Part shown: one piece after another, positions 37,235 through 60,679 of the stretch
Layout of the letters: the number at the start of each line of letters is the position of its first letter
Numbering within the stretch: the stretch's first letter is position 1
Source of the DNA: Hydnum rufescens UP504
Lineage: Eukaryota; Basidiomycota; Agaricomycetes; Cantharellales; Hydnaceae
Assembly (NCBI GenBank): GCA_014904985.1
Contig: MU128942.1
Span: forward strand, 1-64,000
Reading direction: 5' to 3'
DNA: 64,000 bases
Position numbers and translations under genes: made by a program
The notes under the pieces: model-generated
The model's database searches: none
What the model was told of the DNA's origin: nothing
What the model saw: only the letters and a program-made list of their open reading frames with translations

Positions 37235-37391
37235 ATATGGTTTGTTTCACTTCGGTTCGCCATCCCCTTGCTTTCTTTCAGCCAGAAAGACTTCATACTC
37301 ATAATTGCCAACACATGGTGAACTCCTGGTTCAGCAGTTCAAAGCTCCGTAAGTGTTCCATTTCAACGTTCAAAGCGTTCATGAGCTGATC

Positions 37392-38476: not shown

Positions 38477-38534
38477 GTTTGTGACCACATGCCTAAAGAA
38501 TTGAATTGGTTGGATATGGATTGAGAGTTGTGAC

Positions 38535-38556
38535 CCCCTGTAAGGACCACCAGATT
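38535..38556 (-). other. Candidate primer binding site of GyD
   Basis: On the minus strand the 5' LTR end (CAGCTTACA) is followed by AATCTGGTGGTCCTTACAGG. A TGG start close to the LTR is expected where a tRNA 3' CCA end pairs. I cannot name the tRNA. Confidence 0.35.
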
Positions 38557-41169: not shown

Positions 41170-41623
41170 TGTTAAGGGTTGTACTCGAGGCGAAAGATAC
41201 GATGACGTATCGAGACGAATACAAGGAAATGCCCTTAAGGCGATTGATGAGGGAGTCACGAAGTGGGATTACATAAGTCATGAAAGACGAGTACGTACAA
41301 GGAAGACCGGCTTCTTGAGACTTAATAGGCGAAGGTTTTAAGATGAGAGTCGCGAGCAATAACTGAGATCGCAAGAGTGGAATTCAATTGGTTGACAATA
41401 TATTCTCGATCTTCTAAAGAGCGAGTGTACATCAAGTAACTACTTATACTATTAGAGATCAAAAGGGTTTTTTGGATAAAGGGGTGTTGAATAAAGGAAG
41501 GATGTATATAATAGGAATTGCTGAAAGAGGAAGGCACAATGGCAGCAAGGGTGAAGGTCACATGATGGCGCGATTGGCTTGGTTATTCGTACGTAAGCGA
41601 GGTTATGAGTACGACTCATAACA
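41170..41623 (-). repeat. 3' LTR of GyE
   Basis: 454 bp from TGTTAAGGGTTGTACTCG to GACTCATAACA. It differs from the 5' LTR by a small number of substitutions, many at CG/TG sites (for example CTCGAGG against CTTGAGG). The polypurine tract AAAGGGGGG is just outside it on the minus strand (41624-41636). Confidence 0.92.
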
Positions 41624-41773
41624 GTACCCCCCTTTGAGCACGAAGCCCTCGAAGTGTGTAACTCGAGTTTTACGAGGTGGGTGTTTTTTGGTGGTTTCGG
41701 CAGTTGCCATGGTGGTTACTATAAAGGGCAGGTTTGTCGCATTCGTTTCTGATTCCATACCATCATCATTGAT

Positions 41774-44476
41774 ATGGCCGACGAAGCTATTCTCTCTTTG
41801 ATTAAGATGAAGGCGGCAATGGAAATCCTCCAGACCGAGGAGGCGGTTGCGGCCGCGAAGGTCGAGTTGGTGAAGTGGGAGGTAAGTGATGAAACTTTTT
41901 CTGTTTTCTGTGAGTTGTGTTGATTTTTTGTAAAGCAGCAGGTGCATCTGCAAGGTCAGATGCCCGAGGTGTCGCTTCTCATGCCGGAGATGGGTTTGGC
42001 CCTTGCGGCTTGGCGTCTGCATGTCAAGCAGATCGAGAATGACGTGGGCATTTGTCGTGCCCAGGAAGAGGCGGTGGTGCGCGCTTTAGAGGAGGCGCGT
42101 CGTCTTGACGCTGAGGCGCGGTGCGAGGCTGAGGATGCTGCTCGGCGTGCAGCCGTGGCGGAGGTGCTGAGGGGTGCATCGAAAGATGCACCTATCATGT
42201 TGGGTGAGGATGAGGGATCATCGATGGTGAGTGCGATTTTTGAAGTTGCGATGTCGCTGACTTGGTGTTTTTTAGTGCGATTGGTGCTCCTCTGTGCACG
42301 CTATAGAAGAAGGGTTGGGAGCTCCGATGACTGTCAAATCAAAATCTGGTTCAGCCAGTGTGTAGATGGGAGACTGTATTTCTGTTGTTATTCGTTGGGC
42401 TGGTTCACTTCAATGGTTGATCACACTCTGCAAGACGTGTATGGTGTTCAGTGGAGAATAGGAAGGGATATGGACTAGCTGTAGTCAATGATATATCGTG
42501 TAGGATGCTTGTAGAAAGGCTTATACGTTGTGTGGGATGCTTATAGAAAGGCTTATATGTCTGGGATGCTTGTGGAAAGGCTTATATGTTGTTCGTGTTG
42601 TGTTGGTCTGTTTACTGATATTTGTGTATTCTTGTTTACGTTCTCCTGGTCAAAATGCAGATATCTGTGGGTTATAGACTGGTCAGTGCTTGGTTAGTCT
42701 TGTTAGTATGTTTCTTTCTTCTTTCTTCAAAACCAGATACATATTTCGTTATGCTTACTTTTCCTTGGATGTCCAGCAACTCTAACCTTAGGTCCTGCAA
42801 CTATCCTTGGCTTTAGTGATTCGTGTAGAGGGCTACCAGTGGCTTTGTCTCAACAACCTTGAAGATGACTTAGTTCCAGATGGCTTATAGATAGACTGTT
42901 CTTTAGAGGCAAGCAGAAAAGTTGACAGTGGTTGACAGTAATGATTTCCAGAGAGGAGATTATTGTGTGGGGGTACAGGAAATCTACCAGCTTTTATACC
43001 TTTCTGAAGGTGGCTGTGTTTAAGAAATATGACTCCCCCATGGGTGAGTCATATGTGAGTCATAGGTGAGAACAAAAGAAAAATAACAAGATGATGTAAT
43101 AATGCGGTCATAGCTGAGTCATTCATAAAGAGAACAAAAGGAATCATGAGGGGTGATGTCATAGTGATGTCATTCATAAAGAGAACAAAAGGAATCATGA
43201 GGGGGGGTGATGTCACCAATTTGCTGAGCATGTGGAATGCTTGGAGCATGTGGAGCATTCTGGAGGCGAAATGAAAGGATATCTCCGGGTTTTGGAGATT
43301 AATTTGAGCATAGTCCAGTGGTTAAGGTGTTTTGTTGTTGGTTGATAATGGGAACAAGTGCATAGGATGGGATTTGATGCAGAAATGGCAGTTTGCATCC
43401 GTAATAGACGTTCTTGGTATCATTAGATGTGGAATTTTCACAGCTTTCTGGGCGCGGTGGTTCCGAGAAGATCCGGTGTAAACTGACAGAGAAATTCGTT
43501 TTTTACTGATGGGTGTTGATTCTGATAGTAATATTGCTCTGTAGAGTTCAGTTTTGATCTGTTCTTCGCATGCTCAGTACCATCGGATGCGAATTTTTTA
43601 TATCTTTCTAGGCGTGGTTGTTCCAAAAGGATTAAATGCGAACTGACGGAGAAATTCGTTTTTTACTAGAAATTCCGGATTTTGGTAGTAAAATTAGCCT
43701 GGAGAGTGCAGTTTTGGTCCGTTCGACTTGTGTTTGGTACCGTTCGAAAGGTGTGAATCGTAGCTTTCTAAGCGTTATATGGGCATACCTCTCCAATCAA
43801 AACTGACGGAGTTATAGAACGAATTCGATTTCCGTGCATAGCCGTAATTAATTTTGTAATTGGTCATGTGATCCTCCAATGGCTGGAAGTGGTGTGATTT
43901 CGCATTTTCTGATACTGGATGTTTTTATCTTCCACAACACTCGATGGGTGGCCGGTGGTAAGAAGGGGGAGGACCTTTGTGTGTGCGAAGTGGAACAAGA
44001 AGTGTTCCCTGGGGCCGGTGGGTCATCGGCACCTGAAGCGGGTTGCTGAGGGTGGCGAGGAGCCTTCGCGGGCTTCCAGGCAACAACGTGTTGCGTTGCC
44101 TGAGTCGAAGGGTTCACCTTCTCCTGCGGAGGGGGTTGAGGAGGAAGTGCCTGGGGGGGCGCCTGAGCTCTCCGCAGGCGACTTGCTTCTGCGGGTCAAG
44201 AGTCTCTTGAAGCGCACCAAGGAGACATGGGCCGATGACCTTACGCCCGAGTTGGCGCAATGCGCGGTGCTCACGCGATGGGCCGCTGCGGAGGCATCTG
44301 CAGCTGTGGAGCTGGAGGAGGTGAGGGTGCAGGAGTTGGAGCAGGGGTTGGCTGTCGCGAAGTCATGGGCAAGTGTCGCGCGCGGTGTGCGACAGCGATG
44401 GGGGGATGTCGCAGCTTATGCCGAGGCGGGGCGGGAGATCGCAAGGGAGCAGCGTGAGTTGGGGAATGACGAGTAA
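41774..44476 (+). pseudogene. Antisense accessory gene of GyE: coiled-coil protein with cysteine cluster, interrupted
   Basis: Exon 1 is 41774-41881 (MADEAILSLIKMKAAMEIL...). Intron 1 is 41882-41938 (GTAAGT...CAG, 57 bp). Exon 2 is 41939-42226, an Ala/Glu/Arg coiled-coil. Intron 2 is 42227-42275 (GTGAGT...TTTTTTAG, 49 bp). Exon 3 starts CDWCSSVH at 42276, is cut by a 1.64-kb repeat at 42301, and resumes at about 43937 with LDGWPVVRRGRTFVCAKWNKKC, ending at the TAA at 44476. CDWC and CAKWNKKC look like parts of a cysteine cluster of the kind fully present in the GyB gene (3314-3913), here with missing cysteines. The gene converges on pol. Exons 1 and 2 are in frame through both introns, so it was a real spliced gene. 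Confidence 0.75.
42301..43936 (+). repeat. 1.64-kb LTR-like repeat, copy 2, inside the GyE accessory gene
   Basis: Homologous to 14927-16679, from GCTATAGAAGAAGG to CTTCCACA. It carries about three units of the GGGATGCTTGTAG tandem repeat (42500-42590) and the same modules. It has many more CG dinucleotides than copy 1, so it is younger or less decayed. The flanks (GTGCACG and CACTCGATGG) do not give a clear target duplication. Confidence 0.8.
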
Positions 44477-44499
44477 AAATTTAAAATTTTCATTTGTTT

Positions 44500-44750
44500 T
44501 CTGACTGTCTGAGGGGAGTAAACTGGAGTTTTAATGGGTAAGAAGAAAAGGAAAAGGAAAAGGAAAAGGGTAAGGGCACAGAAAGGACGAGAGTAAGAAA
44601 TAAGAGGAGGAAGTCAAGAAACGTCAGGGCGATCGAGATGTGTGGGAGAGATATGGTGAGAGGAAGAGAGATAGAGAGATGTGGGGAGCAGAAGAGAGAT
44701 AGAGGGATGTGGAGAGAGGAAGAGAGGTATGGTCGCAAAAGCGCGGTGTT
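44500..44750 (+). repeat. Purine-rich tract between convergent genes of GyE
   Basis: About 200 bp consisting mostly of A and G (repeats of AAAAGG, then AGAGAGATA / GAGATGTGG), lying between the 3' ends of the antisense accessory gene and pol. It holds no gene. It is a possible polypurine or terminator-like region. Confidence 0.7.
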
Positions 44751-44765
44751 GCGATTTATCATGAT

Positions 44766-46436
44766 TTATACTGCCAGGTTGAGTACTTCTCGTCCTGGTT
44801 TTTCGGGGTGTGCACGATGGAAGTCCATTACTGCTTCGTGAGCATTGGCGAGTTCTGCTGCTGGGAGCCAGCTGAACTCGTCATTGGTGTGCTTGTAGCC
44901 GGACCATCGTACGCGATAGATTAAGCCATTACTGTGACAGCGGCAATCAGTCTTGCTGTCGACGATTTCTGCGATTTCGTATTCGAGTTCGCCGTCAATT
45001 TCGACAGGTGGGGGAGGTGGTTGGGTGCGATTGGGGAAGGGATCGGGGTGAGCGGGCTCAAGTAGTCACACATGGAAGACGTTGTGGATTTGATTCATGG
45101 TGCGAGGGAGGCCAAGGCGATATGTGTGTGTTGAAACTTTCTCGGTGACTGGGAAGGGACCGAGTTTCTTGTGGTCCAGTTTCTTCGATGGTCGCTTTGT
45201 TTTAATGTTGCGCATGTCAAGCCATACTTGATCGCCGATGTTGAGGGTGGGGAAAGGAGGTCGCGATCCAGCTACTTGCTGTTCGTTTTGTTGTTGTGTG
45301 ATCGCGAGTTGGTCGTGAACGTACTTGTGTACGTTGCAAAGGTCGAGCGCGGCTTGGTTGGCCTCGGTCGAAGGCACTGCTTCGATATTGATCTCGAGGT
45401 TGGGGTGAAAGCCTTTGTTCGCGAAGAAGGGTGTTACGTTCGTCGCGGAGTGCTCAGCGTTGTTGTATGCGAACTCTGCGAGGGGGAGAAGCAGTGCCCA
45501 GTCGTCTTGCAGGTAGTTGACGTAAATTCGTAAGTACTGCTCGAGGATTTGGTTCAGGTGCTCGGTTTGGCCATCGGTCTTGGGGTGATATGCGGTCAAG
45601 AGGTTGAGTTTGATGCCGAGTCTCTTCGCGAGTGATTTCCAGAAGTTGGAAATGAAAAGTGAGCCTCGATCTGAGATGATGTCGGCGGGTGTACCATGTT
45701 TGGATATGACCCAATTGATGACTAGGTCAGCGAGTCCTTCTGCGGGAAGTGTCGTGACCATGGGGATGAAGAGACCCATCTTCGTGAATCGGTTGACGAT
45801 AACGAGGATGGAGTCGAATGAGGAGGAGGGTGGGAGTCCGGTGATGAAGTCCATCGCGATCGAGTTCCAGGGTCGATCAGCAATGGAGAGGAATTTGAGG
45901 GGGCCGTATGTGGCGTGGTGCGAGGATTTCGCGTGAGCACATATGACGCAAGATCGTACATATGCCTTGACTGTTTTCATTAGTCCTGGCCAGTAGTATT
46001 TTCACGTAATAAGGCGGATGGTTTTGTGAATGCCTGGGTGGCCCACAAGGAGGTGGTCATGTGAAGCGCAAAGGATGTCGAGGCGGAGGTCGCGATAGTC
46101 AGGGACGTAGATGCGTCCTTTGTGTAGTAGCAATGTTGCATCCTCTGAGAGTGAGAAGAAGGTGGGGGTGGCTGTCGAGTTGCCTTTGGTGGTCTCGATG
46201 CATTCACGCACTTGCGTTGCGATGGTGTCGTCGTGAGTGCCTTCGCGAATCAGTGCGAGAGTCATCTCAGAGTCGAGAGGGTGGTCATCGAGGGTTGCTC
46301 TTAAGTATGCGCTAAGAGCTGTGTCCGAGTCGAGAGGTTTGGCGTCGCGAATGATCATTTGAAGGTTTTGCGGGTTGGCAGTTGCATATACCTCATTTCA
46401 TTCAGGTGGATAAACATCAGGGCGTCTTGTGAGGGT
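44766..46436 (-). pseudogene. Integrase with chromodomain of GyE
   Basis: Minus strand from the FB2 insertion to the TAA at 44766-44768. An HHCC-type zinc domain (HDHLLVGHPG ... CVICAHAK) is followed by the core with Asp in MDFITGLPPS, Asp in ISDRGSLF and Glu in GQTEHLNQ, all intact. Then come WLDMRNI and GPFPVTEKV, a stop at about 45066, and a chromodomain (EYEIAEIVDSK, YRVRWSGYKHTNDEFSWLPA). Stops at 46002-46004 (just before KYYWPGL) and 45066 break it; the first fits CGA to TGA. The N-terminal end, EPDTLTRRPDVYP, is the usual pre-integrase linker and marks where FB2 split the gene. Confidence 0.88.
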
Positions 46437-46444
46437 GTCTGGTT
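46437..46444. repeat. 8-bp target site duplication of FB2, left copy
   Basis: GTCTGGTT, repeated exactly at 56208-56215. On the coding (minus) strand it is AACCAGAC, in the GK-PD-TLTRRPD linker of GyE pol. Confidence 0.88.
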
Positions 46445-46530
46445 CAGGCTGGTCAGTCAAATTGGGGACCTAATTAGGTACCATTTTCGGGGCAGAAAAT
46501 GGTACCTAATAGGTCCCCAGACAGTATGGC
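46445..46530 (+). repeat. Left terminal inverted repeat of FB2
   Basis: It runs CAGGCTGGTCAGTCAAATTG, then GGGACCTAATTAGGTACC and CGGGGCAGAAAATGGTACC. It pairs with 56130-56207 with scattered mismatches. Confidence 0.8.
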
Positions 46531-46739
46531 CGAAATATGGCCAAAATACAGGCATTCCGATTCATTTCAGCCAATCCATGGCTGTGCTAGATTATTTATT
46601 TATTTATTATTATTATTATTACTACTATAATTATATACATATTATGCTATATACATATTATCCCCCCCCCCCAGGGTCTGCCACCACAGGGGGGCAGTTC
46701 ATGCAGGTCGCGGGTTTGCAGGTGGTTAATAAATAACAC

Positions 46740-48020
46740 ATTAGTAGAAGAAAAGTACCTTAAATCCACCACACCCGCTGCAGCGGGTGTGTGGCTCATA
46801 TGCCCCAGTCGGGGCCTGGGCTCCATTTGGGCAGACTCCCGAGGGAGTGTTTGCAGTTTTCGTTCGTACGGGCATTCGCGGTTTTCGTTCATGCGGTCGT
46901 GCGGGGTTTCGTTCCCGGTTTTCGTTCGCGGCGTGTCGTTCAGCGGGGTTGTCTGGGGTCGCACCAGGTTTTGTTGGTGGGTCGGCGGATTTGGGCTTGG
47001 TGGTGTAAGTTTCATGTGTTAGCTAAAATTAAAAGAATACATACATTATATGGCCACACACCCGCCGCGGCGGGTGTGTGGCCCTATTCTCCTGCTCTTC
47101 TGGTTCGTGGTTTCATATGGGCAGGGTTGGGTTGGTGGTGTACTCATTGGCTCGGGGGTCCGCGCATTGAGGTTGGACAGCTTGACCTAGAATAGAAATA
47201 AAACATTAGTTAGATCAAAACTCGCGCAAAAGAGCAGCGACTGCTGCTCTTTTTGCACGTTTGCAGTTATTAAAAAACAACATAGCTAATATTGCCACAC
47301 ACCCGCTGCAGCGGGTGTGTGGCTCCCTACTTTTGTCTTGGTGGCGTCGTGTGCCTGCCTTCATTTTGTTTATTCGCCCGTTTGGGCATTCCGATTCACG
47401 TGACGCGGGGGCTTTCGGTCATGGGGGGGATATCCTGGCCTAGAATAGGAAATAAAACATTAGTTAAAAATTTAAAAACAGTGCAAAAAGAGCAGCAAGT
47501 GCTGCTCTTTTTGCGCCAGGTGGAACATGGACTTAGCTGTATATAGAACCACACACCCACCGCAGCGGGTGTGTGGTTCGCTTGGCCACTTGGGCGGTGT
47601 ATCACCACCCCTCATGTTTTCATTCAGGCTCGGTTGGCTGGGTGTTGTTTCGTTGGGTTTTGCATCACTGGGTTTCACATCACTGGGTTTCGCGTCGCTG
47701 GGTTTCATGTTGTTGGGTTTGGTCTCGTTGGGTTTCACATGCATCGTGTTGCGTCGCGTCGTGTCGCGTCGTTGGGTCATGTCATTTCGTTTGGCGTGTT
47801 TTCGGTTCGCGTATTACCATATGGGGTCTGACTGGCTGGGCCTCATCCTTTGGCACCCGGGACCAGGCTATGACCTAGAATAATAAAGGGTTGTTAGTAA
47901 AAAAGTTCAAAGCAGTGCAAAAAGAGCCAGCTTTTGCTGCTCTTTTTGTGCCGTTGTATCTACTAGAAAAAATACTCACCTTGTGACCACACACCCACAG
48001 CGGCGGGTGCATGGTTGTGC
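46740..48020 (-). repeat. FB2 left-arm array: hairpin-intron/exon units reading leftward
   Basis: Exon palindromes (CCACACACCCGC / GCGGGTGTGTGG) are at about 46766-46794, 47052-47082, 47294-47324, 47547-47578 and 47986-48015. Intron hairpins are at about 47226-47260, 47484-47518 and 47914-47952. In minus-strand sense each hairpin leads into AACTAATG...CTATTCTAG acceptors. The exon at 47590-47830 (minus) reads a clear peptide repeat, KPNETKPNNMKPSDAKPSDV, before the palindrome. CpG is well preserved here compared with FB1. Confidence 0.75.
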
Positions 48021-48737
48021 ATTTGCCTTTTCAGGCAGTTCCTTGTTGTGGTTGCGGAGATGGGAAGCAAGATGGAGATTCAATGCCGGCAATTGCCGAT
48101 ACTCAAGAAGCGCCCAAGCGCTGGTGCTGCAAGCACAGTACACAATAGTAGCAAGCATGTATATGGTGAAATAGATACTATATAATAAATATTTGTCCAG
48201 GAAAACCAGCCATCAGACACGAGCGCAATTGCGATATACAGAGAAGCGTCCCAGCCAGGAGCGGCTGTGTTCGCTGCAGCCAGTAGCACCCAAAGACCGT
48301 ACAATGAAAATGACTCACAGCCAATTCAGCAAAGCAATTAGATATGGAACCAGATGGAATCCGTGAAATAAGCAATTTATCTTATAAATCACTGCCATAC
48401 GAAATATATTCTTTTGTATCTCAAGTGAAAATAGAACACCAAAGCAAGGGATCGATGAATTGCAAAGTTCACTTGCAAGGCATTAAGACGCCAATAAGGC
48501 ATGAGACCAGCTACCTTGCAGTGGATTGGTCGACACACACTAGTACAACTCACCAATACCGGAACCCAATTGGCCAATATGAAGGTACATTAATACATAA
48601 TATGAATGTTCAGGAATGTTAGCATAAATAACACAGTATTAACCACTTCTTACTCCAAATCATGGCCGACAGGATATAGACATATACATACACTAAGAAA
48701 TGGTGGGGACGATTTTGCATTTTTGGTTTCATTCTCT

Positions 48738-48790
48738 TTCACTCTTCACATCCCTATCAAATAGGATGTCGCAAAAGGTGTGATCATCAT
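48738..48790. repeat. Centre of FB2, imperfect palindrome
   Basis: CTTCACATCCCTATCAAATAGGATGTCGCAAAAGGTGTGATC is the counterpart of the FB1 centre (CACCTTCAATTCCCTA-TT-TAGGGAATTGAAGGTGTG), with mismatches. Sequence orientation switches here. 48021-48737 resembles the first-exon region of FB1 on the minus strand but has no supported ORF. Confidence 0.55.
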
Positions 48791-48874
48791 GTAATCAAAA
48801 ATGAACACCAATTTGTCCCAAGAATAGCAACACTCCCATTAATCAGCCATACATTCGTAGACTTGTTATATAAA

Positions 48875-48899
48875 NNNNNNNNNNNNNNNNNNNNNNNNN
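48875..48899. other. Assembly gap (25 N)
   Basis: 25 Ns just right of the FB2 centre. Confidence 0.99.
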
Positions 48900-51130
48900 C
48901 AAAGAAGGACGATGATAATGAGTTAGAGCTCAATAAGGCATGAGATCGCTAATTGCAGAGTGGATTGGGCCACTTTCTACAACTCAGATATGACCCAAAA
49001 AATAATAAAAAAAAATATAATGATAGAATAAAAATATAAAATAATACGACATACATAACAAAAAAAAAAAGAGAATAGGCCGAAAAATTGGAAACAATCA
49101 TATGAGGAAAAACGATACTTCTTGAAATTATATATACAAAATATAAATTCAACGCAAATATAAAAATACAACAAAAATAATAAGATTGAGTGTAGAAATA
49201 ATGAAAAAATAGCAGAAAAAATATATACCGAAAAGAATAAATAAAAATCTCCCAAATAGATAAATAATAATAGAAAAAAAAAAAAAATAATTAAAAATAA
49301 ACAAAATAAATATATTATAAAAAATTAATGGGAACAATTAATCTAGATAGACAATAAAAAAGTTTGGCCCAAATACACACAATCTAGATTAATTAAGCAG
49401 ATAAATCATGACATTAATTGAAGCTAACTGAACATCAAAAGATAAAACACAGACATAATATACAGAGGATAAATTTCCAACATGAGAAAAGAAGACAACA
49501 AATAAAATAAAATTATAATAAGTAAATAATAATTAAATAAAATAAAAAATAATACAAATGCTTAAGGTACTAAATATAAGAAGAGTTAAAAACTAAGAAG
49601 AATGACAAGCCAAAGCAGCAGAAAAAAATTGGGCGGACATTCTTGAAAAAATAAGATAACAAAAGGAACAAATTGCCGGCAGAATTGAACAAATTATAGA
49701 ACCAACATCTATATGCGCAACACCAAGAAAAGCAAAACAAAGAAAACCAACGAACACAAACAAAGCAATAGCAGCACAAGAAAGAAGGCAACAACAAAGC
49801 AAAGCAGCAAAACAGCAAGAGCAACAAGCAGCAAGCAACAGCAGCAAGCAAGCAAAACAGATAGCAACAAAACCACGAACACGCAAAAAATGAAAACAAA
49901 CGAACACAAACAGAAACAAACTAAGATAGCTGCAGGATAAGTATAGGATAACATAAAGGTAAGTTAAAAAAATTGTCAAACTAAATAGAGAGCAATGCGC
50001 AAAAAAGAGATAGCGCAAGAAACATACTCATTTTATGTGAACACAATAAAAATATAGAAAAATTCACTATATACATAAAAAATATAGATATATAAATATA
50101 AATAATAGAACTTAATAGGTAATCTGCAAGCCAGGTACGAAAACACCGCACACGAAGAGAGAGTAACCAGAGAGTAGACAAGAGCCAAAAAACACAAAAA
50201 ACAAAATGACGACCACCAAAATGGAAGCCACCCAAACCACAACACCAGCACGCAGCAGATTAAATGTAGCAAAGATAAATAAAGATAGAGATATAACACA
50301 CCCACACAATAAGATAACAAAAGAAGAAAAGAAAAGAAGAGCAATAGCGACTCCTTTTAAGCAGCAATAAGCTTACAAAATTTCTAAATAATATATATTA
50401 ATATTTAGATCATCAAGACGCACCAAACAAACCCTACGAGCCCCGACCAAAGAACTGGACGCCAAAAAGTGAAACAAACAGACGAACACCACAACACAAA
50501 GAAAAAACCGAAAACCACAGAGAAACACCAAACCCACAATGGGTCTAGAAGATATCTATATAAATAACACCTTACTGACAGCAAAAGAAAGGCAGCGAAA
50601 GATGACATAATATAATATCGAAATATAACGGATTTATAAATACTTTAACTAACAATACATATATGATGACTAAGATATTATAGCCTGTCCCAGGTGCCCA
50701 ACGACAGGGCCCGACGGGCTTAGGGCTCACACCACCACCACAGCAAAACACGAAACCACGGCAAAGAAAAGCAGTGAAACCACAACAAGAAACCAACAAG
50801 CCAGAACGAACACACCAAACGAAACAACAACGCAGAAACGAAGGCGAAGAGGGGCAGATTGATTTTAAAGACAGAACCACAACCTGCTGGCAAGTGTGAT
50901 AGGTAAATCCATAAATATAGATAAGTAGACTTATACATCCAAAAACAGTAGCAAAGAGAGCAAAAGAGCAAAATGACTAGACAATCTTACTTGCACTGCT
51001 TTATGAAATATTTGAAAAAACTTAATAGATCCAAAATTCATATTTCGCATGAGAAAAAAAGAGCCAAAAATAGAAAAAAACAAAACCACCCCCCGAAAAC
51101 AAAATAAACCTGCCAGCAAACTAAAAAACC

Positions 51131-51184
<54 letters not shown>

Positions 51185-52860
51185 GAACGACAGCCAAAAA
51201 CCCCCAATGAAACAACACATCAAAAATACAAGCGAAGTGTAAAGTAAGTTCTAATAAAGATAAGTAAATAAATAATGATAAACACAACAAATGAGCAAGC
51301 AAAAGAGCAGCTACTAGCTAAATACTATTGCAAACTAAGATTAATAATAACAACTATAATTAAAACATAAAAACACATGAATATATAATAATATTTTTAG
51401 GTTACAGATATCGCAACTGAACCAACAAACAGCAAAAAGAAGAATCCAATGGACAAACTCCCCCGCGGAACATGACGAAGAAATGCCCAAACGCCAAATG
51501 AAAAGCCACAAAATATGCAACCACGCAAAAAACAAAATACCAAACAAAAACCCAGAAAAGAGCGAACGAATGAACCGGACAAAGGAAACACCCCAACCAG
51601 AGTTGGAAATCCCGGCGAAACAGGAGAATTACACAAACGCAAGACCAAAACCCCAGACGGAACAACAACCCAACCAGAAAGCGAGCAGTGTGTAGTAAAG
51701 TTTTAAGAAATAAGTAATTTCTCGAAAAAACATAATAGTAGGTCCAAAGGAGACAAACAAATTACGACTGCTCCTTTGGAAACGATAGACTTATTACTTA
51801 ATTTTTCTATATATTACAAAAAAAAAAAACATAAAATAAATATAATATAAATAGAATATATATATAACTGAGTACCATATATATCATTAAAACCCAACAG
51901 AAACCACCACCCCCCAAACGCTCTAAATCAAGACCACAACCACTAGAAAAAGACCAGACCCCGCCAAAAAAAAAATACCCAGCGAAACCGAAACCACGAC
52001 GCAACTCACAAACACCGAACAGCAAACTAGAGGAAAAAGAGCGGGGGAGGGAAAATGGAGAGAAAAATAGGGACACAGACACACCACCCCGCCACCCGTC
52101 GGGTGTAGTGGTCATCTTAAGGTCGAGTCGGTTCCCACTACGAACAGTGGCGCCACAAAACACGACGCAAGTGACTCAGCTGCTGTTTTGTGGTCACTCT
52201 TCGACTCTCCTCATCAATCCTAAATTTTATTTTCTTCTAAGAATCTTGCTCCTCCTGAAACGAGCTACCATACCCGAAAACCCCCAGCCCTGAGCCTGTA
52301 CGAAAAACCGACGGTGGGGGTGTGGACCGGCGGGCCAAATGCAGTACCACACACCCGCCAAACGTGGGTGTGTGGTACTATAGGTATTTTTTAAAGAACT
52401 TTCTACACCGTATTGGTGATCATAAAAGGAAGCTTGCGCCGCTCCCTCTTCCGCTCACCTCTCGACAACGACTTTCATTCTCATTACACCAATCTTCATA
52501 GGATCTGCGAGCCTGACACGCCTCGAAATGGAAACACCTAAAGACCCACACACTACGCCGGCGCACCATGGCTACACAAGCATAGTACCACACACCCGCT
52601 TCAGCGGGTGATGTGCGTCACCTCACACAGGTACGACTTTAAACCAAAACCCCACTATATAACACTATACCGTGCACAAGGGAGCACCCCCAAGGCCTGC
52701 TCCTCTTGCGTCACTATTGCAATTTCTTTCTTTTCCACTACACATGTATGCCCCGTCATTAATTTAGGCATCCAGAACTTGTAAGCCCTCCGTATCCTTT
52801 ACCTTCCACATGACGACCCTTGCGCCGTCAACTATGATCTCCAAACCAATCTCTCTCTAC
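48900..52860 (+). repeat. Error-laden or decayed duplicate of the FB2 right arm
   Basis: From about 49560 this stretch follows the same order as 53000-55560, with frequent insertions, mostly of A, and disrupted hairpins. Examples: 50405-50470 against 53665-53700 (CCTACGAGCCCCGACCAAA); 50690-50740 against 53881-53930 (CCCAACGACAGGGCCCGA); 51405-51470 against 54422-54480; 52330-52375 against 55195-55240. A run of over 50 A is at about 51134-51182. It looks like uncorrected long-read sequence used for gap filling, or an extremely decayed copy. Long open frames on the minus strand here (Phe/Leu/Cys-rich) are by-products of the A/C bias. 48900-49000 is a minus-oriented piece of the first-exon region, and 49000-49560 is A/T-rich with nothing recognisable. 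Confidence 0.65.
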
Positions 52861-52869
52861 TACTATATT

Positions 52870-53309
52870 TAAATTTGGGCCAATTCTGATGCGTAGAAGT
52901 GGCCCAATCCACTCTGTAATTAGCGATCTCATGCCTTATTGAGCTCTGACTCATTACCATCGTCTTCTTCGGGTTTTCCTGGACACATTTCTATTATATA
53001 GTATTTATTTATAATATACATGCTTGGTACTATTGGGTACTGTGCTTGCAGCGCAGCGCTTGGGCGCTTCTTGAGTATCGGCAATTGCCGGCGTTGAATT
53101 TCGCAACTCTATGCAGCCACACCCAGCAAGCAACCACACGACCACGACACAACAGCAATAGCAGCAACAGCAGCAACAGCAGCAACAGCAGCAGCAACAG
53201 CAGCAGCAACAGCAGCAGCAACAGCAGCAGCAGCAACAGTGCACAACCACGACCGCATGACCACGACCACACGACCACACACCTGCTGCTGCAGGTGTGT
53301 GGTCATAAG
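52870..53309 (+). other. Start of FB2 right arm: first-exon-like region with microsatellite
   Basis: It contains the counterpart of the FB1 first exon (CAATCCACT..., ATGCCTTATTGAG at about 52931) but with an early TGA. Then comes CGGCAATTGCCGGCGTTGAA, a (CAGCAA)n tract (53150-53240), and a palindrome at 53272-53303. A plus-strand frame from 53046 reads through the microsatellite as Asn/Ser repeats; other frames give poly-Gln and poly-Thr. Coding is uncertain. Confidence 0.45.
53150..53240 (+). repeat. CAG/CAA trinucleotide microsatellite
   Basis: About 90 bp of mixed CAG and CAA triplets (AGCAACAGCAGCAACAGC). A disrupted version is at about 49795-49870 in the duplicate. Confidence 0.9.
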
Positions 53310-53414
53310 GTAAGTTTTTGTCCTAGTAGAGACAATGGCGCAAAAAGAGTAGCGCAAGCTACTCTTTTTGTGCCACTTTGAATTCTTATACTAATATAGC
53401 TTTTATTATTTTAG
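53310..53414 (+). other. Putative intron with internal hairpin, FB2 right arm
   Basis: The donor is ATAAG/GTAAGT, the hairpin GCGCAAAAAGAGTAGC / GCTACTCTTTTTGTGC spans 53338-53372 (a compensated A-T pair replaces the usual G-C), the branch-like motif is ATACTAATA, and the acceptor TTATTATTTTAG. 105 bp. Confidence 0.6.
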
Positions 53415-53559
53415 ATTATGGTCTGCAGCCAGAGACGAAAACCCGCCACACGACGAGGGTCCGAGTGGCAAGAGCCATACCCAAACAAATGACAGACCAC
53501 CCAATGGGTAGCCCCAGGAACCACACACCCGCCGCAGCGGGTGTGTGGCACTGTTTAAC

Positions 53560-53663
53560 GTGAGTTTCCCCCCCCCCCAATAGATACAGCCGCGCAAAAG
53601 GAGCAGCAATAGCTGCTCCTTTTGCGCTGCTTCAAATTTCTAAATAATATTTTAATATTCTAG
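53560..53663 (+). other. Putative intron with internal hairpin, FB2 right arm
   Basis: The donor is AAC/GTGAGT, the hairpin GCGCAAAAGGAGCAGC / GCTGCTCCTTTTGCGC (again both arms changed together), and the acceptor TAATATTCTAG. 104 bp. The preceding exon (53415-53559, 145 nt) has one fully open frame ending NHTPAAAGVWHC. The next exon continues it in frame with NQTPATVGVWFY. Confidence 0.6.
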
Positions 53664-53875
53664 GTCTCAAGCCGCACCAACACCCTACGAGCCCCGACCA
53701 AAACTGCGCCAAGTGAAAACCCGACGAACACCCCACCAAAGAACCGACCCAAACCAGACACCCGCCACAGTGGGTGTCTGGTTCTATGTAATACCCTACT
53801 GCGCAAAAAGAGCAGCGAAAGCTGCTCTTTTTGCATTGGTTTAAATTTCTTTACTAACTACTTTGATGATTCTAG

Positions 53876-54088
53876 GTTTTGGCCTGGTCCCAGGTGCCCA
53901 ACGACAGGGCCCGATGGGCTAGGGCTCACACACCACCACAGCAACCGAACCACGGCAAACGAAGCCGTGCCCAACGAAACCACGCCAGACGAAACCACAG
54001 CCAAACGAAACACGCGAAACGAAGGGGCGAGAGGTGGCGATGATGCGAACCACACACCTGCTGCGGCAGGTGTGTGGTTCTATATAAG
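53876..54088 (+). CDS. Fully open phase-2/phase-2 exon of the FB2 array
   Basis: 213 nt between a TTCTAG acceptor and an AAG/ATAAGT donor-like site. In the phase where one base completes the preceding codon, all 70 codons are open. The frame reads from FWPGPRCPTTGPDG through a repetitive Asn/Glu/Thr stretch (ANEAVPNETTPDETT) to NHTPAAAGVWFYI, with two bases left over. The repeated peptide at the end is encoded by the exon palindrome (54049-54080). The low-complexity composition resembles no enzyme family. It is the best example in the window of a unit that looks coding; function is unknown, and it may be one exon of a longer repetitive protein. Confidence 0.45.
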
Positions 54089-54682
54089 ATAAGTAGACTT
54101 ATACATCCCCAACAGTGCAAGAAGAGCAGCAAATGCTGCTCTTCTTGCACTGCTTTTGATTTTTGAACTAATAGATCCATTCTAGGTTATCGCTGCAGAT
54201 GAAGAGCCATGAAACAACCCCCCCCCCGAAACAATAACCTGCCAGCAAAACGAAACCCGTGAACGACGCCAAAACCCCCATGAACCACACATCCACTACA
54301 GCGGGTGTGTGGTTCTATAAGATAAGTAATATTGTATACCCACAATGGCGCGAAAAGAGCAGCATCTGCTGCTCTTTTGCACTGATTTTACCTTTTAACT
54401 AACACATGATTTATTATTTTAGGTTACAGTATCGCCTGAACCCCAAACAGCAAAACGAAGATCCCTGGACAAACTCCCCCCCGCGGAAATGACAATGCCC
54501 CGCCAAAGGAAAGCCACAAATGCAACCCGCCAAAACAACAAGTACCAAACAAAACCCGCGAACGATGACCGACCAAGGAACACCCACCAGGCGAATCCCG
54601 CGAACGGGAATGCACAACGCAAGACCCAGAAACCCCAGACGGAACCACACACCCACCGAAGCGGGTGTGTGGTAATTTTAAG

Positions 54683-54800
54683 GTAAGTATTCTCGTAACA
54701 TATAGTGGTGCCAAAGGAGCAGCATACGCTGCTCCTTTGGCGTAGCTTTTTCTTTTTTTCTTTTTTACTAACATATTATTTATGTATTATCTGGTTCCAG
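54683..54800 (+). other. Putative intron with internal hairpin, FB2 right arm
   Basis: The donor is TTAAG/GTAAGT, the hairpin GCCAAAGGAGCAGC / GCTGCTCCTTTGGC, the consensus branch sequence TACTAAC is present, and the acceptor is CTGGTTCCAG. 118 bp. The exon before it (54423-54682) is open in one frame from 54489 to the donor. Confidence 0.65.
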
Positions 54801-54993
54801 GTTCTCATCTAAACCCACGACCCCCCCCCAAACGCTCTAATCAAGACCCACAACCCACTGAAAAAGACCCACGACCCCGCCAAAAAATACCCGCGAACCG
54901 CAACCACGACGCAACTCACCACACCCGACCAGCAAACTGAGGGAAAATGGGCCAGACCACACACCCGCCACCGTGGGTGTGTGGTCATCTAAG

Positions 54994-55097
54994 GTGAGTC
55001 CTGTTCCCCATAGATACAGTGGCGCAAAAAGAGCAGTGACAGCTGCTCTTTTTGTGTCACTTTTGACTTCCTACTAATCTAAATTTTTTTATTCTAG
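54994..55097 (+). other. Putative intron with internal hairpin, FB2 right arm
   Basis: The donor is CTAAG/GTGAGT, the hairpin GCGCAAAAAGAGCAG / CTGCTCTTTTTGTG, the branch-like motif CCTACTAATC, and the acceptor TTTTATTCTAG. 104 bp. Confidence 0.6.
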
Positions 55098-55629
55098 ATC
55101 TTGCTCCTCCCTGAACGAGTACATACCCGAAAACCCCCCAGCCCCCCTGAGCCCTGTACGAAAAACCGACGGTGGGGGGTGTGCGACCGCGGGCCAAAAT
55201 GAGTACCACACACCCGCCAAAGTGGGTGTGTGGTACTATAGGTATTTTTTAAAACTTTCTACACGTATGGTGACATAAAAGGAGCAGCTTGCGCTGCTCC
55301 TTTTGCTCACTTCGAATTGCTTCTATTATTCTAGGATCTGAGCTGACCCGCGAAATGGAAAACCAAGCCCAAACTACGCGGCGACCATGGTACAAGATGA
55401 GTACCACACACCCGCTTCAGCGGGTGTGTGGTACTACAAGGTATTTTAAAAAATATATATATATATACCGTGACACAAGAGGAGCAGCCCAGGCTGCTCC
55501 TTTGCGTCACTTTGAATTTTTTCTTTTTACTAATGTATGCTATTATTTTAGGATCCAAATTGAAGCCCCCGAAATGACGACCTGCGACTCGTCCAAATGA
55601 CCCACCCAATGATGAATTGTCAAGCCCAG

Positions 55630-55865
55630 CCCCCTGTACCACACCCGCCCAAGCGGGTGTGGTGCTACTTAGTTTTTTTTTTTTTTTTAAATTTTGAGGG
55701 ATGGTACCACACACCCGCCCAAGCGGGTGTGTGGTGCTACTAAGTAGTGCTTTTTTTTCTCTTGATTCGTATGGACAGTACCACACCTGCTAGGGTGGTG
55801 TGGTGCTACTTATTTTTTTTTTTTTTTAATTTTGAGGGCCATACCCGCCCAAGCGGGTATGTAGT
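55630..55865 (+). repeat. Four exon palindromes without hairpin introns
   Basis: Palindromes at about 55636-55660, 55705-55733, 55781-55803 and 55840-55862 (CACCCGCCCAAGCGGGTG type) are separated only by T-rich tracts and GTGCTACTTA, about 70 bp apart. They look like collapsed units near the right end of FB2. Confidence 0.75.
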
Positions 55866-56129
55866 ATATTAATTGAATTTTTTAAATAAATAAATCAATA
55901 AATAAACAAGTCAATAACAGGACTGACCACTGAAGGAAACACTGAGTGGGGGTATATGTGTAATATAAATAATTATAAATGGAACTATCCCCGGTATGCC
56001 CGTATGCCTGTATGACCTGCTGCAAGTCTGAGATTCTCTAAGTCCCAGTTTTGGCCAATTTTCGGCCATTTCAGCCAATTCTGGGTGAGGAGGTGAAATC
56101 ATAAAAATGGCCATTTCAGCCGAAATAGT
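55866..56129. other. Subterminal region of FB2, right
   Basis: AT-rich tract (AAATAAATAAATCAATAAAT) and repeats of GGCCATTTCAGCC. It corresponds loosely to 46531-46640 in the left arm. No gene. Confidence 0.5.
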
Positions 56130-56207
56130 GATGGGACCTACTTAGGTACCATTATCTGCCCCAGAAGTGGTACCTAACTAGGTAGGCTTAGATGACTGAC
56201 CAAGGTG

Positions 56208-56860
56208 GTCTGGTTTTCCTCCCAGTCGTCCTGGTCGATAGATGATGATGTAGTCGAAGGAGGAGAGGTATTCTGACCATCGCGCCTGTCGACGAGTGAG
56301 GAGTTTCGTGGAGGTGAAGTACTCCAAGTTTTTGTGATCCGTGATGATGGAAACCGTGTGCGCAGCTCCTTCAAGATACGCTCGCCAGGCGCCAAAGGCG
56401 TCGAAGATCACGAGGAGTTCCTTGTCGTGGGTGTCGTAGTTTAGTTCTGTGCTTTGCATTGATCGCAAGCAGAACGCGACGGGTCAAACTTCGTTGTTCT
56501 TGTTGATTTGTGACAAGATCGCGGCAATAGCATAGTCAGACACATCAGTTTCTACAATGATGCATAATTCGGGGTTGAAGTGGCAGAGGACAGGGGCTGA
56601 TATGAAGGTGTTTTTGATGCTTTCGAAAGCTCATTGGGTCTCATCATTCCATGCCAAGGTTTCATCTTTTTCATGAGATGGATTAAGGGGTGTGTGAGGT
56701 CTGAGTAGGTCACGATGAAGCGGTGGTAGAAGTTCGCGAAGCCTAAGAATGACTGGACTTCTTTTACCGAGGTGGGCGTGGGCCAACTTAGGATCGCATC
56801 GAATTTCGTAGGGTCCATTTGGATGCCAGAGGGGGTGATGATGAAGCCGAGGTACTGGAT
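56208..56860 (-). pseudogene. RNase H region of GyE, split from integrase by FB2
   Basis: The minus strand reads VKEVQSFLGFANFYHRFIVTYSDL (end of the RT thumb), then a frameshift, then ETDVSDYAIAAILSQ, RSMQSTELNYDTHDKELLVIFDAF, ITDHKNLEYFTSTK, ARWSEYLSSFDYIIIYRPG, with the acidic residues of RNase H. A stop at 56484-56486 replaces Arg in NEV-R-PVAF (CGA to TGA). The frame enters FB2 after GGKPD and resumes at 46436 with TLTRRPD. Confidence 0.85.
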
Positions 56861-56956
56861 AGTGTCTGTGTGGAAGGTGCACTTCGAGATCTTGGTGCGA
56901 AGGTTTCTTTCGCGGAGTCGTTGTAGTACACGGTGAACATGTTCACGGTGTTCTTC

Positions 56957-57868
56957 TCATGAATTGGAGAAAATGAGGATGTCATCGAGATATACGATGA
57001 CGAACAGATCCACCATATCCTGGAACGAGTTGTTAATGAAATACTGGAACTGCGCTGGGGAGTTGGCTGCTCCCATTGGCATTATGAGCCACTCATAGGC
57101 ACCGTACCGTGTACGAAATGATGTGAGCCACTCATGTCCTTCGGCAACTCTGATGTTGTAGTAGCCATCGCGAAGATTGATTTTCGTATAGATCGTGGCG
57201 CTGCGAAGGCGATCGAGGAGGTCGTTGATGAGGGGGATGGGGTAGCGACTCTTTTTTGTGATGCAATTGAGTGCTCGATAATCAACGCAAAGGCAAAGCC
57301 CGCCACCTTTCTTTTTCGTGAAGAGGATTGGCGTGCCTGCAGGGGAGGTCGAAGGGTGTATGAATCCTTTTGCAAGGAATTCATTGATGAACTCGTGTAG
57401 TGCTGCGAGTTCATTTTCCGACATTGGATATATGGGGCCTCGCGGTACTTCGCATCCTTCTTCGATATCAAATCGAAGGTCGTACTTGCGATGTGGCAGT
57501 AGATAGCTGGCCGCTGTACCAGTGAAGACGTTGTGGAATTCGTGGTATTCCAGGGGGAGTCGTTGTGCGAGGTCTTGGTGTTCTTTGATGGGGATTGATT
57601 CGGGTAACGCAGAGGTGGGGGGAGTGTCGCAAACCACCGATGCTGTTCGTGCATGGGTTGGATTGGTGATGACGCATGTGTAGAGTGTCGCGCCATCGTC
57701 ACTGGCTGCTTGAATGAAGTCTTCGGCTTCGTAGACTTCAATTGTGATGCTGTGAGCTGGAGGGCTCGTGGTTGTCGGTTCTGGGGTCGAGGCGGTCGTT
57801 GCGATGATGTCGATGCTTAATGGCATCATTACAAGTTTCGAGTGGTGCACCATGTGCTCAATCCGCAT
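56957..57868 (-). pseudogene. Reverse transcriptase of GyE with motif A Asp changed to Asn
   Basis: A 303-aa frame. The RT blocks are RGPIYPMSENELAALHEFINEFLAKGFI, FTKKKGGGLCLCVDYRALN, YPIPLINDLLDRL, TIYTKINLRDGYYNI, ANSPAQFQYFINNSF and YLDD at 56980-56991. In motif A the family sequence is TK(I/L)DLR; here the codon at 57176-57178 is AAT (Asn), from GAT preceded by C. That Asp is one of three metal-binding residues, so polymerase activity would be lost although the frame is open. The N-terminal part (57600-57868) is the pre-RT linker. Confidence 0.9.
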
Positions 57869-57898
57869 TTCGGCCCACGAGATTTGTGGATTGACTTG

Positions 57899-58192
57899 TC
57901 ACAACCAGGGGAGTCCCAGTACGACGGGAGTTGAGGAGTGGAGTTGTGATTCGACGAACTCGATTTTTTGTTGCGATGAGTTCACGAAAGTGACTGGGAG
58001 TGTAACTATACACTCGAGGTTGTTCGCGATCGATCCATCGAATAATCGCAAGGGGTGTGGTGTCGCCAAACAACGACAGTGTGGTGCAGCGCATGAGTTC
58101 TGTACTCGTGATGCGTCAATGAAGTTTTCGGAGGCGCCGCAGTTGACAAGTGCCGAGATGGGGCTGTCTGAGAGGAGGGGGATTGAGACCAT
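57899..58192 (-). pseudogene. Protease of GyE with catalytic Asp changed to Asn
   Basis: Reads SALVNCGASENFIDASRVQ, where the family has ALVD(C/S)GAS. The Asn codon is at 58142-58144 (GTCAAC from GTCGAC). The second conserved block is STPVVLGLPWL. A TGA at 57899-57901 follows PWL, where Arg is usual. With the catalytic Asp lost, the protease would be dead. Confidence 0.88.
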
Positions 58193-58399
58193 CGTGATGA
58201 ATGATGATGGGGAGAGGGAAGAGATGGTGGCTCTTAAATGAGCGGTTCCATCGGGGGGGGATGATGATGAGATCTCAGTGATGTGAGGTTCCTGTTGTGC
58301 TGGGACCTCCTGAGAAGGTGAACATAGCGTGAGCTACTGGGGTGCGCAACATTGCTGTCACAGTTGTGCTGCTGGTACTGGTGGACATCGCGGCCAGTG

Positions 58400-59970
58400 T
58401 CATCACAGTTCACGGTACGTTGTGACGACTGGGGCAACTATCTACTGCATGGTTGCTATTCCCACAGTATGTGCAGAGCTTTTCGCATCTTCGTCACTCC
58501 TTTTCCTCTTCGGTGAGCACGCCGTTAGACTTGTGAACTTTTGGGTCACATGGGGGGTTTGTTGAGGATGAAGGGGGTGTCGACGATGAGGGGTTCACGG
58601 TGCAGGGTTGTGTGCCACGATCTGAGGTCCTCGTGGCTTTAAGTTCCTCTTGGCGTTCCCAATACCGGCCATCAAATCTTAGCGCAGCTTGGTACATGCC
58701 TTGGAGTTTCGCGGGCTTGCCGTCTCGTGAGATGTCATCTTGTAGACGGTTCGGTAAGCCTTGGTAGAACTGTGAGCAGAGTGCGTCGTCGTTCCATCTG
58801 GTGAGGCTCGCTACTTCCTTGAACTGGTTGATGTAGCAGAGGATGTGGTGGTTGTCGTTCATCTTGAGCGCATGTAGTTTTCGCTCTTGAGTCACGACCT
58901 CGTCTGGGTCTCCGAAGTACGTGTGGAGCTCTTCCTCGAAGAGCATCCAGCTGGAGAGTGTGGGGATTCCTCCGTCTCCATGATGAGGCGTTGGAACCAT
59001 TGCCTTGCTGTATCCGTGAGATACAATCCGGCCCAGATGATGCATGCGCTCTCTAGCGTGAATCGCGACAGTTGCAATCAGAATGCCATTTTGCAGTGCA
59101 CAAGGAATCCGTATAGTTTAGAGGGGTCGTGCCCTGAGAACATCTCCGGTTCTTTGATTTTGGGTTCGCGAAGTGCATGTCCCGAGGGTGTGGAGGGTTG
59201 GGCGATTGTCGCTGTTTCGCAGTATCGCGGAGTGGTGGGGAGGTGTTCAAGTTTGGTTCCTCGATGGTCCACGCCTGGAGTTGGGGCCCTGAACGCAGAG
59301 CCCAGGCACGGGGGGGTGGAGTGCGCATCCTCGAACATCGCACGTCACGGAGTTGGTTGCGCGATGTTGCTAGGTGGTGCGTACATGACTGAATTGCCTC
59401 GCGGTGTGTCGTCGAGGTTTTGAGGTGAAAACTCATTGTTTTCCTCGGGGTAGGTTTGGGGCTCGAAGTGGGGGCTTCGAGTGAGGGTGCGAGGTGCGAA
59501 TTGCAAGTTGTGCGCTGCAGGCGAGACTACTTGTCTCGGTCACGTATTCGCGTCAAGGATGGGCGACTGTGAATTGCGGTGCGCGACTTCGTTGCGCAGC
59601 TCTCGGTTTTCATTCGCGAGTTCTTCGAGGTGAGCGTTCATCTGGGCATTGGTGCGCACCATTTCCGCTTGTATCTGCGTGCTGCGTGCTAGGTCTGCCT
59701 GCATTTGTTGCAGCATGCGCAGGAGCATTGTCTCGGTGCTCGAAGTTGACATGGCACTGGGAGGGTTTCCCATGTGCGGACCTTGCATCGAGTTGGGTGG
59801 TGTTTGTATCGTGGGATACGTCGTCCGAGGGGTGATTGGCACCTCAAGGACAATTGGAGAGGAGAGGGCGGAAGTGGATTCGACGGTGGCTGTGTCGTCG
59901 CGATAGTCGTCAGCGACTGGTTGTGGGTGTGGGTTTCATCAAGTGGAGGGCATATTGAGTCTTTCAAGGA
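58400..59970 (-). pseudogene. Gag of GyE with CCHC knuckle
   Basis: The N-terminal part (59540-59940) has a coiled-coil (MLLRMLQQMQADLARSTQIQ). The Gag core has PEMFSGHDPSKLYGFLV, SACIIWAGLYLTDTARQWFQ, and (in another frame) WMLFEEELHTYFGDPDEV through FYQGLPNRLQDDISRDGKP. The zinc knuckle CTYCGNSNHAVDSC lies near 58440-58480. In-frame TGA stops at 59540-59542, 59345-59347, 59078-59080 and 58494-58496 all sit where CGA (Arg) is plausible. One frameshift lies near 59000-59060. 58193-58400 is a low-complexity linker before protease. Confidence 0.82.
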
Positions 59971-59995
59971 AGTCGGTTATTTAGATCGAGAATAC

Positions 59996-60449
59996 TGTTA
60001 AGGGTTGTACTTGAGGCGAAAGATACGATGACGTATCGAGACGAATACAAGGAAATGCCCTTAAGGTGATTGACGAGGGAGTCGCGAAGTGGGGATTACG
60101 TAAGTCATGAAAGACGAGTCGTACAAGGAAGACCAGCTTCTTGAGACTTAATAGGTGAAGGTTTTAAGATGAGAGTCGCGAGCAATAACTGAGATCGCGA
60201 GAGTGGAATTCAATTGGTTGACAATATATTCTCGATCTTCTAAAGAGCGAGTGTACATCAAGTAACTACTTATACTATTAGAGATCAAAAGGGTTTTATG
60301 GATAAAGGGGTGTTGAATAAAGGAAGGATGTATATAATAGGAATTGCTGAAAGAGGAAGGCACAATGGTGGCAAGGGTGAAGGTCACGTGATGGCGTGAT
60401 TGGCTTGGTTATTCATATGTAAGCGAGGTTACAAGTACGACTCATAACA
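59996..60449 (-). repeat. 5' LTR of GyE
   Basis: 454 bp, same ends as 41170-41623, followed by the CCCCC duplication. The sequence just inside it on the minus strand (GTATTCTCGATCTAAATAAC) is not an obvious tRNA-complementary primer site. Confidence 0.92.
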
Positions 60450-60671
60450 CCCCCACTGTACACACAGGGGCCCCTTTGGAGTAGGGTCCGAGGCCATTTC
60501 TAGGCCTTAAACATGGCTGTGGGGCCCCTGGGGCCCCTCGGCATATGGGCACAGATGATAATCATACATGAGGGGCCCCTAGGGGCCCCCATGGAAATGT
60601 ATCTTATTAGACTAGATAAATGCAAGGCTAATGATATCTAATTAGACATGGATAATTGGCTGACCAGCCTG
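60450..60671 (+). repeat. Right terminus of FB1
   Basis: The last part of FB1 after GyE: GGGGCCCC cluster (60465-60600) and terminal inverted repeat ending GACCAGCCTG at 60671. It mirrors 19457-19770. Confidence 0.85.
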
Positions 60672-60679
60672 GTCTAAGT
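60672..60679. repeat. 8-bp target site duplication of FB1, right copy
   Basis: GTCTAAGT, identical to 19449-19456. Confidence 0.85.

Follow-up and report, generated by a model that had tools for sequence, protein, structure and literature searches.

Foldback-like elements built of hairpin-bearing, intron-like units form a putative non-autonomous KDZ transposon family in Hydnum rufescens

The first 64,000 nucleotides of contig MU128942.1 of the basidiomycete Hydnum rufescens UP504 (assembly GCA_014904985.1), hereafter the window, contain two foldback-like elements, FB1 and FB2 (Table 1), the second lying within a long terminal repeat (LTR) retrotransposon that is itself nested in the first. 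Elements of this kind have defined ends, 8-bp target site duplications, a palindromic body and, along each arm, a row of exon/intron-like units whose splice-like signals point outward from the centre. Based on sequence resemblance, we file these arrays as putative non-autonomous KDZ (Kyakuja-Dileera-Zisupton) DNA transposons that form a large family in H. rufescens. We think it moderately probable that such an element holds two divergent non-coding transcription units with short introns that are spliced.

Genome-wide counts were taken over the 63.2-Mb assembly of 539 contigs, in which the window represents contig C34, and 20 loci were fetched as the best matches to one FB1 intron (contigs and loci are cited by C and L numbers). 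Each repeat unit consists of an exon, hairpin A, a donor, hairpin B, a branch site and an acceptor, in this order. Hairpin B is intronic, and hairpin A (CCACACACC...GGTGTGTGG) closes most exons a few bases 5' of the donor. The first-pass annotation of the window had described nine units in the right arm of FB2 and five in each arm of FB1, and these were found where it had placed them, the nine FB2 units spanning 53274-55560, with nine A and nine intronic B hairpins from 53274 to 55510. All six coordinate pairs given there are bounded by GT...AG, with the hairpin as the main predicted fold (folding z-scores -5.6 to -9.1), but only four of the nine FB2 donors read by eye are GTRAGT, alongside two ATAAGT, two GTATTT and one unrecognisable site. 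These six introns, from FB2 and FB1, measure 100-118 nt. Two of the six (53310-53414 and 22362-22471) fold with a longer stem, in which the TACTAA branch site is paired with a 5' UAGUAGA-like stretch.

The signals recur across copies. From 21 sources we collected 247 B hairpins, 224 of them orientable by splice-like signals, and 197 A stems of at least ten pairs lie upstream of these 224 oriented units. GTRAGY is found upstream in 134/224 units on the sense side versus 1/224 on the opposite side, YTAAY in 212 versus 16 and TACTAA in 66 versus 10, a contrast that is partly built in since the units were oriented by splice signals. Genome-wide, GTRAGT combined with the hairpin core has 2,353 matches, whereas the same pattern written backwards, used as a control, has none, and a single hairpin class occurs 3,859 times. 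The corresponding count for ATRAGT (532) mixes donors with antisense branch sites and was not used as a donor count. A median intron length of 110 is rough, as 55 of the 201 donors behind it (GTGTGG) were mis-picked inside hairpin A, and the six introns above are used in its place; the donors used in similarity clustering share this error, which leaves the hairpins counted unaffected. Two stretches of the window are probably assembly artefacts: 25283-29550 is a likely duplicate that repeats ~20740-25250 after a run of N at a spacing of ~4,540, and 50332-52788, which adjoins a run of N, is a poor copy of 53596-55568 (70-72% identical, ~20% gaps). Because both look like assembly duplicates, units in 25283-29550 and ~50332-52788 are not to be counted.

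In most of the 20 loci, left-arm units on the minus strand are followed by a palindromic centre and by right-arm units on the plus strand. As the splice signals themselves had set the orientation of the units, their direction relative to the centre provides an independent test. Within 2.6 kb of 15 element centres, 138 of 140 oriented units point outward, 12 more having no determinable direction, and one of the two exceptions (L012, position 1914) is part of a neighbouring element. Between the innermost A hairpins the palindromic centre measures ~600-840 bp, and it is conserved among 22 arm halves; in L018, for example, a near-perfect palindrome extends over 2.6 kb at 96.7%.

What moves is the entire element, which has ends and 8-bp duplications of its own. 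Array elements have short terminal inverted repeats and sharp ends of two types, ...TGGCTGACC(AGCCTG) or ...TGGCTGACT(GAGTTG), with one of each type per element in the seven copies compared, and the terminal pattern has 486 matches genome-wide versus none for a reversed control. Both ends are available for 14 elements (12 fetched, two in the window), of which the 8-bp target duplication is identical in six (L012, L015, L022, L024, FB1 and FB2) and matches at 7/8 bp in two (L017 and L033). In published accounts, Zisupton and Dileera likewise make 8-bp target duplications, those of Cryptococcus are 8 bp for KDZ1 and 4-8 bp for KDZ2 and KDZ3, and Laccaria Kyakuja has a 7-bp duplication and no inverted repeats. 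The L012 element (duplication CTTACTAA) is inserted in the apparent branch-site region of an intron of another array.

A link to KDZ transposases is provided by L029, which starts with an FB1-type end (CAGGCTGGTCAGCCAATTATCC) and can be followed alongside FB ends for ~540 bp before its KDZ gene. Identity of this end is 88.6% to both L011 and L012, 95.7% to L014 over the outer 304 bp and 97.2% to FB1 over 142 bp. This gene, which reads toward the FB1-type end, contains a KDZ domain (PF18758, E 9e-50) and CxC1 (E 2e-7). L030 has 53 bp of its end in common with L029 and a KDZ domain with E 9e-56, and similar terminal motifs lie beside the KDZ genes of L030, L020 and L044. KDZ matches are abundant in the assembly, numbering at least 154 with 150 of 584 candidates scored.

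As a rule, a non-autonomous DNA transposon is a deleted copy of its master. A tblastn search with the L029 and L030 products (E 1e-4) gave no transposase match in the window or in L009-L028 except in L020, where the transposase copy lies outside the array and starts with an end motif of its own. The idea that the array is part of a KDZ gene copy is unsupported by the cases seen: in the two neighbouring cases read, L020 and L044, a KDZ end motif separates gene from array. The six KDZ matches listed on C1-C5 have no strict intron match nearer than 10 kb, a result in which hairpins outside the strict pattern can be missed and which covers the 150 scored candidates of 584. The larger elements L032 and L033, candidates for a full autonomous copy, contain 5,222 and 4,901 N, respectively. 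In L044 and L019, KDZ elements with the end CAGGCTGGTCAGCCA seem to be inserted into or beside arrays.

Stem pairing is kept in these elements. The first-pass annotation had pointed to matched changes on the two sides of the stem, and doubly changed Watson-Crick cells do exceed those of shuffled data. With one random unit per similarity cluster and 300 shuffles each by column and by whole arm, B stems have 69 such cells, compared with 21.5 on average in the shuffles (at most 31 by column and 34 by whole arm), and A stems 38 versus 12.5 (maximum 22). A dedicated covariation counter applied to 34 sequences (33 of 64 cluster representatives and one more window unit) gave 32 doubly changed cells versus 15.4 (0/500 shuffles) and 93.9% of cells paired versus 90.5% (0/500 shuffles); the number of pairs with a double change, 8 versus 5.9 (24/500 shuffles), is less striking. 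Pairing at the RNA level would tolerate G·U but not A·C. On the sense strand, G·U and A·C are equally common, at 92 to 96 in B (binomial p 0.83) and 102 to 95 in A (p 0.67) over all units, and at 9 to 9 in B and 2 to 4 in A in the consensus units, where counts are small. Selection on the stems at the RNA level is therefore unsupported, and this parity is an absence of RNA-level evidence and no proof of a DNA-level cause. Consensus stems are near-perfect Watson-Crick (325/344 pairs in B, 253/262 in A); most mismatches of single copies are probably later decay, which would be symmetric in any case. The comparison of G·U with A·C also indicates that, where a stem is a DNA palindrome, matched changes alone are no proof of RNA structure.

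The exons look non-coding, judging from the behaviour of their reading frames, and we consider it very improbable that the arrays are decayed protein-coding genes with repeated exons. Long spliced frames do exist in some arms, for example 246 aa across three junctions in L012, and two deposited hypothetical proteins, BS47DRAFT_1369394 (L012) and BS47DRAFT_1359858 (L011), map to arrays. Three of 28 spliced arms also beat 99/100 letter shuffles, but the other 25 fail to do so, exon lengths modulo 3 leave remainders of 0, 1 and 2 in 20, 31 and 25 of 76 cases, and the exons look T-poor, which alone lengthens frames. A conserved exon-1 ATG opens a hydrophobic frame in FB1-type copies, which stays open to donor 1 in only 2/27 copies, a set that includes two copies from the assembly duplicate. 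From this ATG (22096 in the window, and others) the frame runs for 76-89 codons in several FB1-type copies, but in many copies from other subfamilies a stop cuts it off within four codons. Coding exons were thus rejected because, with the exceptions of three arms and two exon-1 copies, an open frame is not kept across copies. When the exon limits of the two deposited gene models were rebuilt by spliced alignment, the predicted acceptor was used in six of their seven hairpin-holding introns, one of which (L011, 4989-5099) agrees with our prediction at both ends; the models may be ab initio, and this is agreement with a gene caller, not transcript evidence.

Other origins of the arrays were weighed against the same data. 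The first-pass annotation had seen a tandem exon/intron array inside a mobile foldback-like element, which stands, and had likened it to introner-like intron gain, which is not supported. An intron that moves by itself and gives rise to new introns in host genes seems barely plausible to us: there are thousands of near-identical introns, and known introners often carry transposon ends (PMC9860276), but all 24 places read, namely the 20 fetched loci and four seemingly lone strict matches, are arrays, and the ends and duplications belong to the whole element and not to a single intron. The four lone-looking matches, found among the first 100 listed (C1:444861, C2:323839, C2:623912 and C4:95168), had been candidates for introner dispersal and all lie in arrays. 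Spread into host genes is unsupported for the same reason, the host genes themselves not having been scanned. A scan of viral contigs for the hairpin returned four terminator-like loci that lack hairpin A and a splice context, and these were set aside. The palindrome or its short hairpins could alternatively feed Dicer as a foldback source of small RNAs, as near-perfect palindromes such as that of L018 would allow. We find this improbable, since the outward splice polarity is the wrong direction for transcription across the centre, single stems are short (~10-22 bp) and no Rfam model matches at gathering scores in the stretch searched, 46400-56300.

Possible, if rather doubtful, is that the hairpins are DNA-level features, either protein-binding dyads or cruciform or replication-templated palindromes, and that the splice-like signals are left over from one ancestral intron and were copied with them. 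The absence of a G·U over A·C bias, the almost perfect Watson-Crick consensus stems, the existence of AT-donor unit types in 6-14 copies and the palindromic nature of the element body itself would all fit. However, many unit types still have a recognisable donor, branch site and acceptor despite dissimilar spacers, with a strict outward polarity, and matched two-sided changes would be needless for a fixed binding site.

We favour a non-autonomous KDZ element that holds two non-coding transcription units running in opposite directions, and in this reading a KDZ transposase made elsewhere in the genome would move the element in trans. The conserved centre would act as a two-way promoter, and each arm would give an outward-running non-coding transcript from which introns of ~100-118 nt are spliced. 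Subtracting the intronic hairpin of the consensus units (26-48 nt) from this length leaves approximately the size of two KDZ-gene introns read by eye (~65-73 nt), which suggests that the hairpin is looped out in splicing; this could set the distance between donor and branch site to that of a normal intron. Because mismatches show no RNA strand bias, the symmetry of the stems may be upheld mainly at the DNA level, perhaps, from general knowledge, by hairpin-templated copying of one arm from the other during replication. Introns are still present in the copies read, which argues against spread through spliced RNA. As a guess, splicing could allow transcription of a palindromic element while avoiding a single long, perfect double-stranded RNA. 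An extension of this thought, which we hold to be unlikely, is that the elements carry a new type of transposon cargo, namely a mirror-image pair of non-coding genes made of repeated hairpin introns and spliced divergently; as only the sense strand would be spliced, the perfect self-complementarity would be broken up and the element shielded from silencing by double-stranded RNA.

Several points weigh against the favoured reading, in addition to the built-in part of the signal contrast given above. Transcription and splicing are predicted from sequence signals, and six of the seven hairpin-holding introns in the deposited gene models use donors other than those predicted. Of 20 multi-copy consensus units inspected by eye, 12 have GTRAGY, three have AT for GT and five have weaker or unclear sites. 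The AT-donor unit types are multi-copy (14, 10 and 6 copies), with ATRAGT and the remainder of the unit kept, so not every intron is spliceable at its usual donor. On the side of the transposon ends, no target duplication was found in six of the 14 two-ended elements (L010, L011, L013, L021, L026 and L032), although in some of these the two ends may come from different nested copies. For the opposite (T) end, no match was found in a KDZ-coding copy: the sequences of L029 and L034 run into N, and L030 and L035 have none, so that the KDZ link rests on one end. Finally, the ends of FB2 match L029 in the terminal motif only, and its KDZ membership is suggested by its likeness to other members of the family: in its units and outer arm it is similar to L016, L017, L022 and L024, and the C-ends of L017, L022 and L024 are 76-78% identical to L029 over ~100 bp, L016 being absent from those matches.

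Table 1 Features of the FB1 and FB2 elements in the window.
Feature	Position	Strand	Remark
FB1 target site duplication GTCTAAGT, left copy	19449-19456		8 bp, repeated at 60672-60679
FB1 element, including two nested LTR retrotransposons, one holding FB2	19457-60671		
FB1 left C-end (CAGGCTGGTCAGCC...) and subterminal part common to KDZ transposase copy L029	19502-19965	-	
FB1 left arm, five hairpin-intron units	20120-21560	-	splice sense leftward
FB1 left-arm B hairpins	20165, 20425, 20782, 21160, 21452	-	outermost without orientation by signals
FB1 central palindrome, axis ~21941	21560-22325		conserved in 22 arm halves; putative divergent promoter
FB1 right arm, units 1 and 2	22325-22850	+	predicted introns 22362-22471 and 22658-22757; B hairpins at 22395 and 22686
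LTR retrotransposon splitting FB1 right arm	22859-39908		limits by eye; includes probable assembly duplicate 25283-29550
FB1 right arm, units 3-5	39909-40760	+	B hairpins 40117, 40460, 40722; last without orientation by signals
Second LTR retrotransposon, in FB1 right end	41170-60449		5-bp duplication CCCCC and limits by eye
FB2 target site duplication GTCTGGTT, left copy	46437-46444		
FB2 element, inside second LTR retrotransposon	46445-56207		pol matches on flanks
FB2 left arm	46760-48020	-	A hairpins 46770, 47053, 47294, 47548, 47990; B hairpins 47223, 47481, 47916
FB2 unit 1 hairpin A, end of exon 1	53274-53303	+	
FB2 unit 1 predicted intron GTAAGT...TAG	53310-53414	+	hairpin 53334-53377
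FB2 unit 2 predicted intron GTGAGT...TAG	53560-53663	+	
FB2 units 3-5	53757-54430	+	hairpins kept; donor lost (unit 3), ATAAGT (units 4 and 5)
FB2 unit 6 predicted intron GTAAGT...CAG	54683-54800	+	
FB2 unit 7 predicted intron GTGAGT...TAG	54994-55097	+	
FB2 units 8 and 9, hairpins A and B	55205-55560	+	weak donors GTATTT
Three A-hairpin repeats without intron, outer end of FB2 right arm	55640-55860	+	
FB2 target site duplication GTCTGGTT, right copy	56208-56215		
FB1 right C-end, outer part	60450-60671	+	inner part precedes 41170
FB1 target site duplication GTCTAAGT, right copy	60672-60679		

The left terminus of FB1 is compound, with a 45-bp piece of the other end type (19457-19501) followed by a full C-end, and the target duplication sits outside this terminal piece. 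A subterminal GGGGCCCC-rich tract is common to FB1 (19580-19760) and the KDZ copy L029 (210-480). In FB2, exon 1 of the right arm contains a CAG/CAA triplet repeat at 53149-53239, and units 4 and 5 (54089 and 54322) carry ATRAGT in place of GTRAGT, like the AT-donor unit types.

A family of thousands of units that keeps an ordered row of introns seemingly encoding nothing, in a genome full of likely matching transposase, is of interest under either outcome. If spliced, the arrays would let intron function be studied outside protein genes in a natural setting, where the mirror-image arms serve as internal controls and copies differ in donor, branch site and stem. If unspliced, they would be a striking example of DNA-level maintenance of palindromes and splice-like signals.

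Searches of openly licensed PubMed Central (PMC) papers, subscription papers lying outside this coverage, listed none that describes such an element in its title or the start of its abstract; partial likenesses exist to three known systems. Like KDZ transposons, including Cryptococcus KDZ1-3, the Hydnum elements have terminal inverted repeats, 8-bp duplications and an end in common with a KDZ and CxC1 transposase copy. Unlike them, the array copies have no transposase gene that we found and have a palindromic body of exon/intron-like units; ten fetched two-ended, N-free copies measure 4.5-6.7 kb, compared with ~9-11 kb for Cryptococcus KDZ1-3. The foldback element Tetris of Drosophila virilis (PMC4079207, abstract) is similarly non-autonomous, with long inverted arms of internal tandem repeats of ~220 bp. 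The Hydnum repeat differs in being an intron module with two near-perfect hairpins and outward splice polarity, the centre of the Hydnum element is itself palindromic, and the Tetris abstract does not describe its repeats as introns. Introners (PMC9860276, PMC4457414) resemble the arrays in comprising many near-identical spliceosomal-type introns with transposon associations, whereas the Hydnum introns ride in one larger element, with none outside arrays in the places examined. The host here is a basidiomycete, and the string 'basidiomyc' is absent from the main text of PMC9860276. Each of the three, foldback elements whose arms are built of repeats, KDZ transposons and introners, is known already, and their combination in the Hydnum elements is new in form.

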